64,000 nt of DNA from Sipunculus nudus. Taxonomy: Eukaryota; Annelida; Sipuncula; Golfingiida; Sipunculidae. A model generated the notes under the pieces. That model saw only the letters and a program-made list of their open reading frames with translations. It ran no database searches and was not told the origin of the DNA. Below are positions 2,594-55,103 of the stretch, one piece after another. Numbering within the stretch: position 1 is the first letter of the stretch; every line of letters starts with the position of its first letter. The translations under genes were made by a program, and so were the position numbers. The DNA is taken from positions 7,090,576 to 7,154,575 of the forward strand of contig CM049309.1 in NCBI GenBank assembly GCA_026874595.1, in the 5' to 3' direction.

Positions 2594-2657
2594 ATGTTTT
2601 CACCTCCCGTGCCAGGCGGAGGGAGTCGGAATGAGAATTTTACACAGTACAAACCAG
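2594..2657 (+). CDS. E-protein exon encoding the MFSPPV part of activation domain 1
   Basis: This is an internal coding exon of a class I bHLH transcription factor (TCF4/TCF12/E2A/Daughterless family). The acceptor is cattgattgtcatttcag and the donor is CCAG|GTAGGA. The 64 bases read from phase 0 as MFSPPVPGGGSRNENF... and end in phase 1. In vertebrate E-proteins the sequence FSAMFSPPV closes activation domain 1, the helix that recruits p300/CBP and TAF/SAGA-type cofactors, and from memory an exon also begins at this Met. That, plus a good acceptor directly before the ATG, argues that the Met is internal and that an upstream exon encodes the LDFS half of AD1. No such exon is visible in bases 1-2593. 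The downstream intron is 33,539 bp. Family assignment is strong; which vertebrate paralogue it matches is not meaningful, because invertebrates usually have one E-protein. Confidence 0.87.
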
Positions 2658-6200: not shown

Positions 6201-7199
6201 CAAGGTTTTCAGACACACATTTTGAAGAAAAAAATACCACCTTGTGCGAGGAAAATCAATATTAGTAAGAGAGAATCAAGGCACATTGATTGCTGATTGA
6301 ATCTTGAGGCATTTATTGACTCACTCTTTACCAAAAGATATACTACAGTTAAACCACCAGAAAATAAAACAAGGAAAATTAGGTCAATATGACCTCTTTT
6401 ATGAGAATAATGGTTATTAGTCTCATATACTTATCTCACTGGAAAGCAGTTTAATATGATCTAATCATGCAGATATTACATAAGTGTGTCTCATGAATTT
6501 GTCTGATGAATATTTTAATTAATATTTCAGTTGAAGATCCAGAATTCTTCTTTTAATAATGATTGATCAGGACAAACCGTGCCATGCAGTAGAGCAAAAA
6601 AAAAAAATACTTAAAAGATTAATGATTTTCAGAAATTTCAATATTTATTTATACCATTTAAGTATTATGCAAGTATGTGACCAATATTGTGTCTTATAGG
6701 GTCTTTTGTGTTTTTCTGAATGGATGAGGTGAGCAAAGGTGCAAAAATTAGGGGGGGGGGGGGCTGTTCAAAAATTTATTTTAAATGTTAGAGTTTGCAA
6801 AGTATTAAATATTTCCTGACTGCCTCTTGTATGCTTGTCCAGACCATGCAGTGCATGAAACTGTGGAAAGAATAATAGCGCCACATGAATCTTGTGTCCT
6901 ATGTTTTATATATGATATCACATACACTATTCCAGTCCAGTAAAGAGCAGATTACATAAATTATTTATTTGAATTCTTTCTTCAAAGCACAACATAAATG
7001 GTCAAGCCGTAATCTGATTATGCCATCTTTTCATGGTTTATTTGGATTGTTTCAGTTAATTCCTTTGTGGCTGTTAAATGAACATATTGAAATCTATTAC
7101 TCTCGTGGGACAACAGGCACTAAAGCTCTATATCTATTTGACAGATTTGTGTAAATTGAGCATAGCGGTCTTGTTGAGCCAGTGTTTGTCGTTTTCATG

Positions 7200-7900
7200 T
7201 ATTGAACCAGTTGTAACAGAGTTGTCAGAGAGTGCTACTTTTTCAACAATGATGATAGATTACGCTGTCAATAGAGGCATCACGCACAGCCTAGTGTTGG
7301 ACAGATCTGCTTGTCACGGAAAATGTGTTTGTCCCAGTAAAGACGGCAACAGGGCACTCGTGGCAAGTTATTTAATTTCCCGGGGAAGCAGCAGACAAAT
7401 AGATTTTACAAGGCAGCCTGGTGTTACTGAAAGGAAGTGCTGATGACCCCAATGCATGTACAGAGAGCACGCTTCGGTGTGCTGATCGATAATTTGACAA
7501 AATCAATGCGAGGTAGGCAGATACCTTTTGTTAACCGCCCTTGTCAGAATTGAATCACGCTGAAGGGGCCTAACCTATTCGCCGCCGCCCTGTGGGCAAC
7601 TCAAGCCAGAGTGTTCTCTCTATTATCCCACCATCTCATTGCTCAGAGCTCCCGTTATCACGCTAGTTTCCTACTGAGCTGCTGTTTGAAATTAGCTCTT
7701 TCATGCAAGTTACATTGTATCTAAACTGCAAGTTCACATGACAGCTCAATACTCTGGTGCGTTGAGCATTTTATTTCTCCTGGTTCATGAGCACCGCAAT
7801 CACGTCAATGTACTTATAAAAAAATCCACCTTGTTCTGATTGCTCTGATAGGGAATGCAGACCTACGTTAATTTGGTTACGAGCCAGTTATGCTGGTATT
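7200..7900. promoter_or_regulatory. High-complexity intronic island with candidate start exon
   Basis: GC-richer, non-repetitive block containing the weak first-exon candidate at 7443-7512 and a CGCCGCCGCC segment near 7580. It could be a promoter or conserved enhancer. Confidence 0.3.
7443..7512 (+). CDS. Weak candidate alternative first exon
   Basis: An ATG at 7443 (in-frame stop at 7428-7430 just upstream) opens 23 codons beginning MTPMHVQRARFGVLID and ends one base into a codon before GAG|GTAGGC. The phase (1) matches the 36197 exon. It lies in a GC-richer island. A 23-codon open frame meeting a usable donor in the right phase can easily occur by chance, and the start context is poor. 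It is listed because it repeats the pattern of the much stronger 28811 exon in the same intron. Confidence 0.18.
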
Positions 7901-27361: not shown

Positions 27362-28810
27362 GACTTCAGAAACAAGTTTATTTACCATATTTGTTTGAGC
27401 AAACTTTGAGCTAAACGCCCCAGCCTTTGTCCTTTGTTTTGATGACTGTCAGATATTTGCAGTGTGTCAGTTTTCTTCTTTGAGATTCTTGAAACTTTTG
27501 AAGGTTTATGTAAAAAGCAAAATACAGGTGAGTTTGTCCAAACAAACTCATGCTTTTGGTTTCTACTTGCGATTTCTGTTATGACGTATTTACTGAAAAA
27601 AATGATGCCTCAGTTCAGTCTTTAGTTCCCTTAGTTGTGATCTCTCTTATACTTTCTTGTCCAGTTTTGTATTCATATATTAGTTACTGAATTTTACAAA
27701 TTAGATAGTTTTAGGTTTTAATGTATGGTGCATCTTAAGATCAAAATCTAAAAGATCAGTGAAAAATTCTGGTATGAATAACAGACATTACATCTGGTAG
27801 TGTTCCTGTTTCCACATAATCACATTATGTGTTCTCTGGACTTCCTAAAGAAATATTTCTTTCAGTTTAGTTCTTTTAACACACAGGAGTTTTTTATCAT
27901 TCTTTATTTCCTGATCAGAGTACGCTGTTCTTTTAAGTTGCGCTTTCCGCAAGTTTGACACTTTAAAGACTATGTCAGCCCAGCTGCAAGGAAGGCCCAC
28001 AGCGTACAATTATGACTTGAGTATTGAATGTGACTGACTAAGCAGTTTTCTGCTTTGACAAGTTGGAGTCATAGGTTAACTTGGGCAAGATTACTTTTAA
28101 TCACAGTTATTAACCTGTGCTGTGTTACCACATGCTTCTAGTTTAATTGGGTGTTAAGTTACAGTGAGGGGTGGTTTGTGTTTGTCAACATTTGCGGTGG
28201 TAATTCATTTGACCCGTTCAGGTATGGAGCAAGTGAGATGTGGTTGATAGAATTGGTAAATACCAAATTGCTTATACCTACAAGTGATTATGGCAGTTCA
28301 AAGGCACAGGCACCATAGAATTGGGCTGTGGAGAAGTGGGAAATAAAGCAGCAAGTGGAATTAACTTCGCTGTACGTGCCACTTGCTTGTGAATTTGTAT
28401 GAACAAAAGAGAGGTGTCAGAGAGATCCAGAGGGGCCCCATTCATTCACAGTCCAAGACTGTGAGGTAACAGCAAAAACCAAAACCTCTCCCATGTCACC
28501 CCTTGGCCTGGGTGCTTTTACAGCTTGGGCCATGCATTGAGAGGTGTTTCAAGTTGCTAGAGCATGTTGGGAATTCCTTACACCGCAGAGGGGATTTAAC
28601 AAACAGCTGAGGGGGTAGCCGGTGCAGGCGCCACTCTGTCTGGCGGAGGAATGGGGTCACGCTTGGTGACTCATGGGTAATTTGTTGACATGATCGGGGA
28701 GCGAGCGGCCCAGACATACTGGCACCGGGGAAGCCTCCTAGAGGTGATAAGCTGCTTTGGGAAGGAAATCCCTCAGATTCACCTGTGATCCCGCTCAATT
28801 TTGCTGCCAA

Positions 28811-28877
28811 ATGAGGCCCTGCCGCTTCTATAGGCCGCCAGCCCCGCAGTATCCTCCTCCAGGATACTTTTGGCCAG
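28811..28877 (+). CDS. Candidate alternative first coding exon of the E-protein gene
   Basis: An ATG at 28811 opens 22 codons that begin MRPCRFYRPP and end with PPPGYFWP plus one base, directly before a perfect CAG|GTAAGT donor. The frame upstream is closed by TAA at 28748-28750 with no other Met between, so the ATG is the natural start. The exon ends in phase 1. The next downstream E-protein exon (36197) requires phase 1 and supplies GA, giving ...YFWPG-VEDTGGG. The peptide is Pro/aromatic-rich and the codons are GC-rich, unlike the surrounding intron. The product would lack MFSPPV and so lack AD1. Vertebrate E-protein genes are known to use alternative 5' exons in this way (short TCF4 isoforms, HEBAlt). 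The Kozak context (CAAATGA) is ordinary to weak. Transcription has not been shown. Confidence 0.62.
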
Positions 28878-29027
28878 GTAAGTGAAGTTTGAGCGAAGTT
28901 TGAAAAGTTGGATGCTAAAGCTCAGGTAGAGGCTCCCGGGCGTGTGCTATATTTAGCTCAGAGCAGAGCCCGAGTGGGATACCATTCTCAAGCCCTGTAA
29001 TGTCATTTACTATCATGCATGGGTGTC

Positions 29028-29054
29028 CCTGGTTGCTAACGGTTAGCAACCAGG
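29028..29054. promoter_or_regulatory. 27-base palindrome, RFX-like half sites
   Basis: CCTGGTTGCTAAC at 29028-29040 and its exact reverse complement at 29042-29054 are separated by one G. GTTGCTA resembles the RFX X-box half site GTTGCCA, but the half-site spacing is wider than in a canonical X-box. It lies about 150 bases after the donor of the candidate alternative first exon. Confidence 0.5.
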
Positions 29055-30713
29055 CTGCTATGGAATGCTGCTTGTCATGCCCCGACTCTGGCCGATACAC
29101 TCAACTGGTGATGGCAAGGTGATAAGGCACCTCGGACCACAGTCTCATTGAGGATAAATGTGTCAGACCCTTGATAGCTGGCAATGAAATATTAAAACTC
29201 AAGTTTGATTGGTAAACATTAGGTAGGGTGCCCCACTGACGATTGCCTTTGTCAGGGAGCGCAACGATTTGCGCCCAGAACTTGTGATTGTTCATTCGCC
29301 CTGCAAAAGCATATAATGGGACTGAACTTGAAAGCACCTCCATGTTATTGATGCCGTAAAACAATTTCAAGTGTACTTTTTCACGCCAACGGGCCAGGGG
29401 GGCAATGTATAATGGCATGAGTCTAAGACATTTCACACCTTGTGGTTGTTAGACGCCTGTATTTGCAGTACCCCAGAGAGAGAACTTGATAAGAATAAGT
29501 AAAAGCTGCATATATATTTTATATGCTAAAGCTCTCTGTTCCCTTTATGCTATTCTCATTTGATTAGAAGAAAACATCTCTCTTTTAAACAGATGGATGG
29601 CATTTAAGATGTTTCATCAAACCATCAACATATATATCATCATGTTACTCTTTGCATCTTCAGGAAACTGAATAATTAAGATTTATACATATTAATCCCA
29701 GTTCACATAAACCTGTTCATAAACCAATTATGCCAGAAAGGCAAGCAAAATCTGCTAACAAAAAGTTGTAATGTGAGAGATAAAAGGAAATTATTCTTGG
29801 TATATAAACTATACATAACATTACAGGTGATTTTTTTTTCTGTTCTTATAACCATACTAAACATTTTATCAACTTGTGAAATAAAAGCCAATAACAAACA
29901 TATTCATGACTTTGTAGGACTATTTAACACACCCTATGGACAGGATGAAAATTTAGTTTTCAGTTTTTAGTACATAATATTACTAATATACCAAGGCTGC
30001 TAATGCATGAGTACCTCTGTGCTTCAAATAAGATTTTGGAGAAATAAAAGCAGAGTTATAATATATAAATAAAAATGTCAACCTTATAAAGGATGTGTCA
30101 TGTTAAAAACCTTTTAAATAATTGAAATTCAGGTCCCATTTGGATTTTTCCCATGTGTGCGTTTTATTGATTAGTAGGTAGTTGTGTCACGTACCAGTCA
30201 CAATTTAATTCTGATTAATTTTCTTTGGAAAATATATAACATTTTTAAAGGAAAAGTTTGTGAATGTATACAGTTTAAGCCACATAAATTTTGGAACAGA
30301 ACCTCACTAGGACTTTCATCATAAGTGAATGGACAGGTCCAGATGTACAGCAACACTTGTACAACTGAACTTAAATGAAAAAGCACATTGATTTATATAT
30401 AAGATAGAGGATTATAATATATAAGGTAGTGAAGTTGTTCAATTTGTGCCACATTATCAGTTCACCAGAACTTAATAATATAGCATTCAGTATAAAACTG
30501 TTCAAGTGAGTAATGGAGTCCAAAATAGTCCACACACTGAGGGACAACAACATTTAACTAACTGCACTGTACAGTTGCATATAGACTAGTTAAATCCATA
30601 ACATTTCCATAATAGTGACAATTAAGCCACAGTTCTTGAACAAAAAAAACTTTACAGAACACTTAATATGGAGTTCTGTCTCTAAGATGGTGTTAAATTT
30701 TGGTCAAAATACA

Positions 30714-36196: not shown

Positions 36197-36261
36197 GAGT
36201 GGAAGACACAGGGGGAGGTATGGGATACAACAGCCAGACAAGCCCTAGTTATAATTCCAGG
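36197..36261 (+). CDS. E-protein exon, VED...SPSY linker
   Basis: This is a second internal exon of the same gene. The acceptor is atttgattatttgtag and the donor is CCAGG|GTAAGT. It enters in phase 1, its first two bases completing a Gly codon begun in the 2594-2657 exon, and leaves in phase 0 after 65 bases. The peptide is VEDTGGGMGYNSQTSPSY followed by NSR. Vertebrate TCF4 has VEDRSS...GHPSPSR at the same place directly after the MFSPPV exon, so order, boundary and VED/SPS anchor residues all agree. The region is a disordered linker after AD1. The exon is also the phase-compatible acceptor for the alternative first exon at 28811-28877. A run of TTTACCT-type repeats occupies the 190 bases upstream, one of them complementary to this exon's own donor (see findings). 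Confidence 0.87.
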
Positions 36262-38818: not shown

Positions 38819-39039
38819 TGTATTTAGTTATACATATACACACGTTGTAATCTCTAATGAACCAATAAAAGAGCAGTCTTTATTCCATTGTTCTAGTGCT
38901 ATTGTCAAGGCTTTTCAAGTGACCGAGTCACCAGTTTGTTATTTCATTTCGGCAAAATGGCAAACAAATGAATTGAATTGAAAAGTGAGAGTACATTATG
39001 TTGGAAGCAGGAATTTAAAAGTGAATAAATAAGATTTAT

Positions 39040-40490
39040 TATGTCATTACATCCCGCACTCAGGTGTTACCGCTTTTTCTGACCTGGGCTAATAAGGTTG
39101 TGTAAGCTGTGACAAGTTGTGTTTTTGTCAGGCCTGCAAGAGTGTCATTTTGGTTACATCAAATAGCTGAAAGGAGGGAGCTTCAACCTTGCTGTAGAAT
39201 AACCGCTGATTTACAGGCAGCCTGCGATTGTGGCATTGAGGGTATGATGTACAGAAATTGTCCACCACAGGGCCATGATTGACACATGCACATCACAATA
39301 AGCTGCTAGGCACGACTGGGGCCTAGGGCTGCAGGCTACCTAAGGACTGCAAGCAGCTCATACCAGCTACCATCACAGCCACATAGAGCAGCCAGCTCTG
39401 TCATGGTCGTTCCTATATTGGCTGGCCACTTCCCATCCTCTGGCTGTTATCTGACAGCCAGCGCTGAAATACAGCAAAGCCATTCAGCGCCCCTCGTTTA
39501 TCTATAATGAAGAACCCCTTACAGGTCGCCAGCCAATCTGACGGACTGGCACAACATGTTCTGTAGTCACTGCTGAGGAAAATTGAATCAATTTGCCTTC
39601 ATCCATAATTTTCAGCCAAGGAGCTAATCTGTCTAAATGGCCTTTTCATATGACGACCGGCATGAAAAATTCATACACCCTGGTGAATTGCAAATTATAA
39701 ACATGATATAAACTGTCCCCCGACGCAGGCAGTTTTCCCAATTAGCCTCAATGGGGCTTTTCAAAAAGTGGGATGTTCATTCCCAGTGTCATCACACGGG
39801 GACGATCGTGTAAATCAAATAGTGGCTCCGCAGCTCGGCGGGAATAAGAGCAGAGCCTGGAAGCTGTTAGGATGCAGTAGGCCACATCGCGCCCGACAGC
39901 CCATGTTGTTTTATGCCTGATTGGCCAGGATGGGGCAAGCAGAAAACCCGAATGGATTCACGGAGCCTTCATTGCCAGGTCTAGCCCTTTTGCATTATGG
40001 ATGACTTTGGATTAGCCCCTACATAATTGGGCACAAATTGAGAAATCATCCTTTTTATCCATGCCTAGCATCCCCAAATGTCCCAGCTTCGGCCACAAAG
40101 ATGTAGCCATGTTTTGCGGGTGAATGGCAGGAATTATATACCGAAGACCAGAGACCCTTAAAAATGAAACATACTTAATGTATGATTTTCTGCCTGACTT
40201 GATGGTCGAATTTGCTAAAGAAGGCCGCAGAAACACACGTTTTGGGAGTGTTCATTTGTTTTAAGGCTTATAACGCTAACATGTTAGGATTTCTTTTGCC
40301 TGTCTCTGTTTGTTACATTCCCCATGTATATCAGTTAAGGATCAAACTCTTTGGGGCTTTAGAGTTTTTTACAGTATTAACCTTGTCCCAGATAAAAGGG
40401 ACGGATCGAGTCCCAGCGGGCTGAAGATTGTATGAAATGTCCGAGGCTGCATTTGGCCCAATAAAAGATTGTGGCTCAAAGATTGCGGTG
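39040..40490. promoter_or_regulatory. Large high-complexity intronic island
   Basis: About 1.45 kb with high sequence complexity and raised GC between AT-rich flanks. It contains many TAAT/ATTA homeodomain cores, E-boxes and CAAT-like motifs, for example TTTTCCCAATTAGCCTCAAT near 39735, but no open frame with splice signals. Short frames on both strands (40012-40236 minus and 40212-40424) are non-specific. It is the best candidate in the window for a cluster of conserved non-coding enhancers. Confidence 0.38.
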
Positions 40491-46480: not shown

Positions 46481-47329
46481 CTCAGATTTTGTCAGAAAAT
46501 ATCTGAAATAAATCTATTCAGAATTTATCTGTTTTATCTGTTAAAAATTTATGCTTTTGAAAGTCATATTTGAATATAACTATATTTAAAAATAGTAATA
46601 ATTATATCTGATTTTATCTTATCATCATTTTTGTATCATTAAAGTGAAAAATATAATATTCTTAATATTTTTAATATTATTACTTTTAAGATAAAGTTAT
46701 TAAATTTGTAATGATATATTTTAATGGATACATAAGATAAAGAAGTAAGTGATAATAAATGATATAAAGTATATTTAAGAGAACATGCAATTACATAATG
46801 ATCATATTAATACATTAAGAAAAATTTATTATATACATAGTAATTAATAGACATTAAGATAATGAAATATAACATAGAAAAAAATAAAGATAAATAAATT
46901 TATAGTGACTTTTATAAGGGAATGACTTGTTTAATAAATAAATGAAGGAAATAATCATGTACCAGGAGAATTTTTTATGTTATTGTGTATTTTAAAAATT
47001 ATATACTTTAATTAATTGAAAGATGAGAAACCCCCCAAAAACTTACTCAGTCACAGACAATTTATATGTCTTTGCAAGTTGGTAATCTTTTGATTAGACC
47101 AACTGTCAAACTTTAACTTTGGTATAATTGTTTATTATATAAGTATAATATTTGACTTAATAGTCTGTTATCATTTCTCAGCCCAGCTGTTCACTGCAAG
47201 TCTTAATCCTAAAAGGAAAACAAAAATTAAATATAGTTTGTGTTATGGATATATTAGAATAACAGTAAAGTTTTCAAACAATAATACGATATGATTAAAC
47301 ATGAGTATCACACTTTGTATACGACCCCC

Positions 47330-47670
47330 AGGTGGCTAGCTGTCTATTGTGATTATTTTTATGACGATGCCTCGAGAAATGAAAATGACGAGGTTTTGAA
47401 GTATTCATGGGCTTGGTGATCTCGGCGGTCTAATGAAATCTGTACGGCAACCTGCTCCCTCTATCTTCCTTAGCGTCCGGTGGCGGCACGCCGGCCTTCC
47501 ACTGCACCACTTTGTCACACTCTCGGCTGACACTGAGGCGAGATTTGTACACCTTAAAGCTGCCACTGTAGTCGCTGTCTTAGCCTCATGTCCAGCATGT
47601 TCCCAGTGGCAGCTTTCTACAATAATTGGATCTATTTTTATCCACAGTTTTACATCAGCCAAGTAAGCTA
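47330..47670. promoter_or_regulatory. High-complexity intronic island
   Basis: GC-rich block (CCGGTGGCGGCACGCCGGCC near 47475). It is open in one frame on each strand (47433-47666 plus, 47405-47662 minus), but neither is recognisable and the only donor-like site (AA|GTAAGC) gives the wrong phase for the next exon. It is a candidate enhancer or non-coding first exon. Confidence 0.28.
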
Positions 47671-48705
47671 TTGTCTAGCAAACTGTTTGTGGTCATTGTT
47701 TATGTGTATGCTTGCTTTTTTGCCTGGATAATGATGTTATAGGTGTATAAACAATAAGTATATTGGTGCCTTTGAAGTTTTACCCATAGCATAGTGTTAA
47801 TTCTTTATTTTCTGTTTGGGAGAGGTATAATAATAGCTTTCTTGTGCCGATGGTTTATATAAAAATTGAAATGTGTGTTATATTAAAGTATTTGCAAAGA
47901 GTGGTTGATGTGTTGGCTGTGTCTGTATGGGTAATATATCATGACATCGTGTATGTATCATTTAAAACATTGTATTCTTCTTGTCTTACCATATGTAGAT
48001 TAGTGTTTGGCTGCCTGTCAGTGTCATATTAATACCATGATATTTAAAAGTTGTGACGTTTATTTAGTATGAGTGATTGTGTGTTTTGTGATATTTTCCT
48101 TTTTTGTGATAACTGTACTTTCATTCAACTCTTACCTGATTAAACTAATTTGAAACATTTCAATCAAGAAAACACAGTGATATTTTCTGGGTGTAATATC
48201 AGCTTTTGTCAATTTTTGCCTACTACCAACTTTAAAATAATATGGAAACTTGACATGTGAAATAACAGTACACCAATCAAATCAAATGTTTTCTGATGCA
48301 GTTATCACCTTTTTTACAGCTGTGAGATATTTCAGTGTTACTGTCATTTGATAAAGAAGGCATGAGAATAAAAATGAATTTACACCTTTTCCAAATTTGA
48401 AAAGATTGTATGACCTATGATATGTCATGAATCTGTTATCTGGCCAAACTGCACGTACAGCTCCCTAACCTTTACATTAAATTGTACTGTGCAACTTTCC
48501 ATTGTTCTGAAACTTAAACCAAGAAAATTTTTAAATGTTTCAGAAAAAAGAGAGCTAATAATATACAGGCGGGTAGCGTCTTTGCATCAAAATATTATTG
48601 TACCAGTATCTATGAACTGGTCAAATGAGATCATATGGTTTTGATCACAGTGTCCAATTGCTGTTTTATATAATTAGCCTAATTTGATTTTGCTTTATTT
48701 TTCAG

Positions 48706-48760
48706 GGGATGTTAGGGAACAATTTATCAATGACACCTCCAGATCCAATGTCACCTACAG
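48706..48760 (+). CDS. E-protein exon, LLG...SPT linker
   Basis: The acceptor is ttgctttatttttcag and the donor is CTACAG|GTAAAT. Its 55 bases enter in phase 0 and leave in phase 1. The peptide is GMLGNNLSMTPPDPMSPT. Vertebrate TCF4 reads SLLGGDMDMGNPGTLSPTK in the equivalent exon, so the LG, the central Met-x-x-P and the terminal SPT align over the full exon length. This is one of the clearest family matches in the window. SPT and TPP are potential proline-directed phosphorylation sites, which is inference only. The next intron is short (634 bp). Confidence 0.86.
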
Positions 48761-52976: not shown

Positions 52977-54590
52977 CATGTCATGCTGTGTCAGCAGAAA
53001 CATTGTATGGTTTCCACTGAGTCAGGATCAGGCAACATTTCCAGATCCAGAGTTTTATGGTTGATGGACTGGGGCTGCCCTGACTGTCGCCTGGTCATTG
53101 AGATAACACTGGCAGGTATTTAACAGTCACATTCAGGGCTGAGGCAGCAGCCCAACAGTCAGACAGTAAGACTTGTTGAGCTGTGATTAGATCTGTTTCC
53201 CTTATGCCTACAGGCATGGACGTCTGGGAAGTCATTGTGTACAGGATAAACTTGGGATGTGAGAAATTAGCTTGCTCATTGGGGATCCATTTCTATTGGA
53301 AGAGCAGGCCAGGGGAAGATTTCTGGCTATTATTAGTTTGAACTGTAGATTCAACATTTACCTGCCATTTTGCCAATTGTTCTGATTTGTGACATGCGGG
53401 GTTTGTTCAGCAGTTAGGCAAGCTATTTTTGCGTGCCAGTTATGGGTGGTTGCAATCGCCAGTTGGATCAATTGGATGACAAAGGCTATGTGTAATTGGG
53501 TCATGGTGTTGTGGGCTGCATGGCTATTGTTGCATAGCCAAGCCACTTGGAGGATTTAGTTAGTCAGGGTTGGTGGTGGTCACACACAAAGGCTCCCCAA
53601 GGGCAAGGAAAAGGGGGAGGTTACAGGGTGATTTTGATGGATAGGGTTTGCTGCTGATGAGGCAAGCTGATAAGGAAACTGGAGCTCTAACCATGCCAAG
53701 CTCACAACATGTACACAGGAGGGCATGTCACATGGACCCCTGAGTCTGTGTTGTGGGGCTTCCTGGAAGGAAACTACAGTTGACCTCTAAGCCCAGAATT
53801 ACCGGAGCCCTCTAGCTGTAGGAGAGTAACCTGATATCTTTGGTAGCACTTTCCGTGCACATACACAAACCCTGACTGTACTAGTGTTTACTAGGCAACT
53901 GGCATGATAGTAACCAAAATGTGGGTTAGAGACAGTAGCAGCTACACAGAGCTTACACCCCTTCAGGTAACTTTACTATATAATACTGGTGATGGTAGAC
54001 TTGGGTTTTGTCTTCTGGCTTGGCTGCCAGGTGCTGTGGCTGTCAGCAAATCTGCAGCCTGTGAACATGTGCAGCAGAGACTAATGGCTAGCACGTGGGA
54101 AGCAGGAATGGTGTTTATATATTTCGTACTTTGTGGGCTGTACTTGTTGTGACACAAAATGGCAAGCTGCCCCTTAAGGTGACACAATATGGCCTGGTCT
54201 CCCCTATTATCATTTGTGGTATATGACTAGCAATTATTATTCATAAATCCTTAGTATTTAACACAGGTTTGCCCCTCAGGACTTTGTCTTGGGAACAATA
54301 GATTGCTTTGGATTGTCCTAAAATAAGCCTCTTATTTCATGTTATAGCTATAGTAATGAGTAAACATTGCACAAAGTCACTAAATTGTTGGGTACCGTAC
54401 CCCTGAATTACAAGAAATCTTGGATCAGGGCAGTATGGGTATAACTGAGCACAGGAGGGTAACTAGTTGCTGTATTAAGAAGATTGTTTAACCGTTATTT
54501 TTTGCCTGTACGGTTTACCAAGCTCACCATGAAAACACATATGTAAGGATTAATAAATTAATGAAGGTGATAAAATTATATGATCTTTAT

Positions 54591-55103
54591 AAGTGGTGGG
54601 AGTCGGTTCCTTTTTCATAATCGATCATCGGTTTGAGCAAACCGATCGATGATCGATTATTAATCGGTTCAGATAAATATAAAGAAATATGCAATTATCT
54701 GTGAAACTGTACTTCATTTAACCCAGCTCACATGTCTGAGTAATTCTACCTTAAGAATATGAATTCTTGCCTTTTTAATTTTCCTTTTAATACTTAGTTA
54801 TGCTTTTCCAAGTATTATTTTAATTAATTATAATAATCAAGAATTAAACCAAAATTTATTAAGTTCTCCATTCTTGCATCTACTGTGTTATGCTAAGTTA
54901 CAAATGGAAGTTATTTGGGAACAAAGACTCATTATATGAAGTGCGAAATTATGTAAAAAATTAATCTTGTCTCTAACATTAAGGCATTCTGGAAAAAAGT
55001 TATGATTATGGTGTAATCGATAGTTGCCTTTGGTAATCGAGCGCTTGAATGTGGCAGCAAAGCGACTGACTTTCGATAAAACTCGATGATCAGCCCATCA
55101 GTA
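54591..55103. mobile_element. Non-autonomous hAT-type element (MITE), 513 bp
   Basis: The element is flanked by an exact 8-bp direct repeat ATCTTTAT (54583-54590 and 55104-55111), which fits the hAT target duplication length and NTNNNNAN pattern. Its ends, AAGTGGTGGG on the left and TACTGATGGG read inward from the right, match at 7 of 10 positions and resemble the CAGTGGTGGG type of hAT terminus. Both subterminal regions carry repeated ATCGAT/TCGAT strings, including an imperfect hairpin (AATCGATCATCGG then CCGATCGATGATCGATT). Such subterminal repeats are typical hAT transposase binding regions. There is no transposase frame inside. Confidence 0.68.

Follow-up and report, generated by a model that had tools for sequence, protein, structure and literature searches.

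A candidate alternative first exon within the E-protein gene of Sipunculus nudus

Within the window analysed here, a 64-kb stretch of Sipunculus nudus DNA in whose frame all positions, including the minus and plus kilobase values, are given, the segment 28811–28877 is best read as the coding portion, at the 3′ end, of an alternative first exon that would start a shorter E-protein form, a reading in which our confidence, drawn from sequence features, is evenly balanced. From the observed sequence, reading frame, phase and donor of this segment, and from the E-protein identity of its host gene, we propose a promoter, a transcript, a protein and their functions, all as predictions.

Table 1. Coordinates of the candidate exon, its neighbouring exons and the surrounding GC-rich island in the window.
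Feature	Position	Strand	Basis or remark
Coding part of candidate alternative first exon, MRPCRFYRPPAPQYPPPGYFWP	28811..28877	+	Ends in phase 1; sequence read directly
Donor GTAAGT (CAG/GTAAGT)	28878..28883	+	12.7 bits
Canonical upstream coding exon (MFSPPVPGGGSRNENFTQYKP, MFSPPV)	2594..2657	+	Read by eye; ends in phase 1
Downstream exon common to both forms (VEDTGGGMGYNSQTSPSYNSR)	36197..36261	+	Acceptor and joined frame
Later E-protein exon (GMLGNNLSMTPPDPMSPT)	48706..48760	+	Weak tblastn match, splice sites fit
GC-rich island, candidate promoter/regulatory region	28201..29500	.	GC 0.49; core 28501–29000, 0.54; rest of intron, 0.35

Identity and extent of the host gene

The window was extended by 100 kb on each side (264 kb in total) and searched by tblastn with human TCF12 as the query. 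The original prediction of an E-protein gene was borne out, since an AD1/LDFS exon, two bHLH exons and an exon carrying ERNLNPKAACLKRREEEK lie in order on the same strand. The AD1 exon with the LDFS motif, MNSIGTDKELSDLLDFSA, was found at −10.7 kb, further pieces were matched at 79.9, 85.8, 89.1 (weak, E 0.15), 89.9, 93.6 and 97.0 kb, the bHLH exons lie at +97634 and +99257, and the subsequent exon, with ERNLNPKAACLKRREEEK, lies at +100.4 kb. One weak match (E 0.45) fell on the opposite strand at −66.7 kb. Both bHLH exons scored above the cut-off for PF00010, which has 54 matches genome-wide, and the second bHLH exon, used as a genome query, matched both bHLH exons of this gene and no others. 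A second E-protein gene, sought as an internal conservation test, was not found in the genome by this bHLH-exon query; a single E-protein gene fits an invertebrate.

The MFSPPV exon resembles the segment of TCF12 that reads AMFSPPV, and the shared exon at 36197, which holds an in-frame ATG, is taken by exon mapping to be the TCF4 exon 5 part of AD1. An acceptor-like CAG precedes the ATG of the −10.7-kb AD1 exon, which thus appears to be internal and to have the canonical start site upstream of it.

The tandem bHLH exons (+97634–97779, starting RLRVRD, and +99257–99402, starting RVRVRD) are each 146 nt long, have equal phases and share 33 of 49 residues. They are apparently an E12/E47-style pair at the only E-protein locus found in the genome, with mutual exclusion suggested by this arrangement, and may be of more interest than the candidate first exon.

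In 5-kb bins, CpG o/e is 0.12–0.40 from −25 to +100 kb, 0.64–0.93 from −75 to −25 kb, 0.46–0.59 from 100 to 115 kb and 0.63–1.14 beyond 115 kb; still further upstream, past −75 kb, it returns to low values (0.27–0.38). The CpG-depleted domain, about −28 to +100 kb, coincides with the gene body. In invertebrates, a methylated transcribed gene body would appear CpG-depleted, and the domain is likely the methylation footprint of the transcription unit. On this basis, and judging from 1-kb bins, the canonical start would fall roughly between −29 and −25 kb.

Sequence and splicing of the candidate exon

The predicted ATG, 22 open codons, in-frame stop 63 bases upstream and perfect donor are all present. 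The ATG stands at 28811 and opens the peptide MRPCRFYRPPAPQYPPPGYFWP, the final exon base is the G at 28877, the stop is the TAA at 28748, in agreement with a stop-to-stop frame of 44 aa, and the donor is the consensus CAG/GTAAGT, with its GT at 28878. The claimed phase fit to the next exon also holds: the acceptor TAG/GAGTGG at 36197 accepts phase 1, and 28811–28877 joined to 36197–36261 stays in frame and reads ...GYFWPGVEDTGGGMGYNSQTSPSYNSR (fuller junction, MRPCRFYRPPAPQYPPPGYFWPGVEDTGGGMGYNSQTSPSYNSR). The segment accordingly combines an open frame, a start codon, a donor and a phase suited to the next internal exon. Its 22-codon peptide occurs once in the genome and contains PPGY, a match to PPxY, the consensus for WW-domain binding; in a Pro/Tyr-rich peptide such a match can be chance.

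Among the AGs preceding the ATG (exon starts 28524–28777), six give an in-frame length, and five of the resulting exons begin before the in-frame stop; the sole in-frame acceptor after the stop, at 28752, has a poor tract (8/18 pyrimidines). An in-frame cassette exon is unlikely on these grounds, and a first exon is therefore the best coding reading. A frameshifting poison cassette of 101 nt (28777–28877), placed between 2657 and 36197, would run into TGA at 28812–28814 after 12 codons; the CAG at 28774–28776 and the stop in that frame are both evident by eye, but its polypyrimidine tract is poor (8/18) and we regard this arrangement as very improbable.

A real alternative 5′ exon whose 22 codons are untranslated or only marginally translated seems to us quite unlikely. 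The frame is open, an upstream stop is present and the phase matches the next exon, all of which speak against it. In its favour, the base at −3 of ATG 28811 is C, ten more ATGs (28224–28690) would precede it if the start site were upstream, the in-frame ATG of the shared 36197 exon could serve instead, and in human TCF4 the 21 alternative 5′ exons yield 18 N-termini (PMC3137626). No ATG lies between 28690 and 28811, and the uORF begun at ATG 28690 closes at 28786; because this interval is ATG-free, a leader starting below 28690 would meet ATG 28811 first.

Base composition of the intron and the GC-rich island

The intron is AT-rich and 33.5 kb long, as claimed (2658–36196, 33,539 bp; GC 0.35 outside the island). 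The claim that the island is GC-richer than the exon has to be reversed, with GC at 0.61 in the exon against 0.54 in the island core. When 500-bp windows were taken in 50-bp steps from −11 kb to +101.5 kb, the nine GC-richest all started within 28301–28701, and the candidate exon sits where the gene body is richest in GC. A search of the 1.43-Gb genome with 28201–29400 gave no match but the stretch itself, although very frequent words are passed over in such a search and the result is therefore no proof of rarity; nor does the island match any other part of the 264-kb region. A transposon origin is unlikely on both counts.

CpG o/e, which is 0.28 in the remainder of the intron and has a median of 0.80 outside the gene, reaches 0.44 in the island and 0.47 in its core, less than in the DNA flanking the gene body (0.64–0.93 upstream and 0.63–1.14 beyond 115 kb). 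TpG/CpA o/e in the core, at 1.14, is as low as outside the gene (median 1.16), the figures being 1.33 for the remaining intron and 1.34 (median) for the gene body. The raw CpG/(CpG+TpG) ratio of 28601–29100 is the top of 1200 gene-body windows; after GC correction, 5%, 12% and 4% of GC-matched gene-body windows (300, 500 and 800 bp, respectively) equal the island's best. Because GC drives the raw ratio and 4–12% of GC-matched windows are as high, CpG retention carries little weight: in the island it exceeds the gene-body median, yet it is unexceptional once GC-corrected. No TATA[AT]A occurs in 28000–28811, and the case for a promoter within the island is thin.

Raised GC or CpG retention is also seen in other stretches of the gene body, at 7101–7800, 39001–40200, 47001–47700 and 54201–55100, which are possible regulatory elements.

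Chance expectation for the exon and its donor

Donors were scored with a PWM. The candidate donor reaches 12.7 bits, against 6.1–10.1 bits for the eight real donors of the gene that were scored. The null was an order-3 Markov model of the intron (400 runs), in which phase-1 ATG-ORFs of at least 20 codons with a donor were counted; it produced 0.030 per intron with a donor of at least 12.67 bits, 0.095 with at least 11.6 bits and 0.38 with at least 10 bits. With a donor of the top class, simulated stretches of 1300 bp that matched the trinucleotide composition of the island produced 0.004 such ORFs. On the real 264 kb, with both strands counted and true exons kept, top-donor cases numbered three in phase 1 and six in all phases, candidate included, which without the candidate corresponds to 0.13 (phase 1) or 0.11 (all phases) per 33.5 kb. 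For donor and phase together, the odds thus range from roughly 1 in 8 to 1 in 30.

Within the intron, the candidate is the only phase-1 ORF of at least 20 codons with a donor of at least 9.4 bits on the sense strand, and the antisense strand has none; at 6.1 bits or more, the score of the weakest scored real donor, there are seven sense and four antisense ORFs. A weaker candidate (9.1 bits) lies at 7443–7512, in another GC-rich stretch of the same intron. Across the 264 kb, counting both strands and all phases and keeping true exons, 39 ATG-ORF–donor pairs have at least 20 codons and a donor of at least 10.1 bits. The candidate has the highest GC among them, two of the 39 reaching 0.55. Donors of at least 12.6 bits occur in six pairs, counting the candidate, whose donor is outscored by one. 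Its location at the GC peak is extra evidence for the candidate, though high GC itself favours open frames.

Similar pairs occur in two other introns, at −10036 (57 codons, 11.9 bits), 63707 (22 codons, 11.6 bits) and 64997 (36 codons, 10.2 bits); each matches the phase of the next known coding exon, and all three are apparently due to chance. The first of them, from −10036 to −9866, is an AT-rich ATG-ORF with the donor AAG/GTGAGG in the phase of the MFSPPV exon, perhaps a chance occurrence.

These counts bear on a rival explanation, under which the island serves as an enhancer or has another regulatory role within the intron, and a short ORF and a donor coincide there by accident, favoured by high GC. 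Chance ORFs with good donors amount to 0.1–0.4 per intron (0.11–0.13 on real DNA with top donors), the candidate was picked after the fact from a reading of the whole window, and CpG retention is raised at 7.1–7.5, 39.4–39.8, 47.0–47.2 and 54.6 kb of the gene body as well. Such an accident would nevertheless have to bring a top-class donor in the correct phase to the very place where GC peaks in the gene body, and we consider this explanation less likely than not.

Proposed isoform and comparison with known E-protein variants

Under the first-exon reading, transcription would start from a promoter in the GC-rich island, near 28.4–28.8 kb. Splicing would then join the first exon, ending at 28877, to the acceptor at 36197, which takes phase 1, and the resulting E-protein would begin MRPCRFYRPPAPQYPPPGYFWPG/VEDTGGG. 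Of AD1, the isoform would lack both the LDFS helix and the MFSPPV segment; it would keep the remainder of the protein, with either bHLH exon. It would be expected still to dimerise and bind E-boxes while activating mainly via AD2, and the PPGY (PPxY) in its new N-terminus could add a WW-domain contact. Its original description as AD1-less is too strong: the exons carrying LDFS (−10.7 kb) and MFSPPV (2594–2657) would be lost, but the 36197 exon, matched by exon mapping to the portion of AD1 that TCF4 exon 5 encodes, would be retained.

According to Sepp et al. (PMC3137626), AD1 of TCF4 is encoded by exons 3–6, the human 5′ exons 5a–5c directly precede internal exon 5, TCF4-F, -N and -R contain the AD1 part from exons 5–6, and activation by TCF4 isoforms varies with the presence of one or both activation domains. 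The appeal of the original prediction to vertebrate TCF4 and TCF12 stands, insofar as alternative 5′ exons are known there; with 5a–5c placed before exon 5, the TCF4 precedent is closer than was stated. Human 5a–5c resemble the candidate in being intragenic first exons spliced, as a rule, to the next internal exon, with the LDFS part of AD1 lost and the rest kept, and the proposed isoform would be of the TCF4-F/-N/-R type. By exon mapping, we place 5a–5c and the candidate in one and the same intron, which separates the MFSPPV exon from the SNVEDR exon. Unlike human 5a–5c, the candidate is predicted from sequence, and the likeness is one of position.

HEBAlt, an isoform of TCF12 that has a TCF4 paralogue also made with an Alt exon, is without AD1 and has a tyrosine-bearing N-terminus of 23 aa (PMC9385190). 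The candidate N-terminus is similarly short and tyrosine-bearing, but the Alt exon lies further downstream, between exons 8 and 9 of Tcf12; unlike HEBAlt, the candidate has no YYY motif, and its form would lose less of the N-terminal half. In HEBAlt, the Alt exon joins the VYAPS exon. Assignment of the candidate to the HEBAlt type was rejected, as it precedes the 36197 exon, the VYAPS-like exon begins at 79406 and YYY is absent. Three pieces of the 22-aa peptide had no occurrence in the open-access literature searched, and no invertebrate E-protein N-terminal variants were recognised from titles and abstract starts in one collection of open papers, which is weak evidence of absence.

Biological implications

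Alternative 5′ exons are already well known in human TCF4 and in TCF12, and the candidate, if real, would be a further case. Given these coordinates, any RNA-seq data from the species could put the first-exon reading to a direct test. A more far-reaching proposal, which we consider unlikely, is that the exon marks an ancient internal promoter of animal E-protein genes, positionally homologous to that of TCF4 5a–5c and giving rise to an isoform that has lost the LDFS helix and carries PPxY in its N-terminus. If this were true, the alternative between isoforms that have the AD1 core and isoforms that lack it would be older than the vertebrate E-protein triplication. Mammals tune E-protein strength through N-termini with or without AD1, and finding the like in an animal that has just one E-protein gene would point either to an old device or to one that has arisen more than once.
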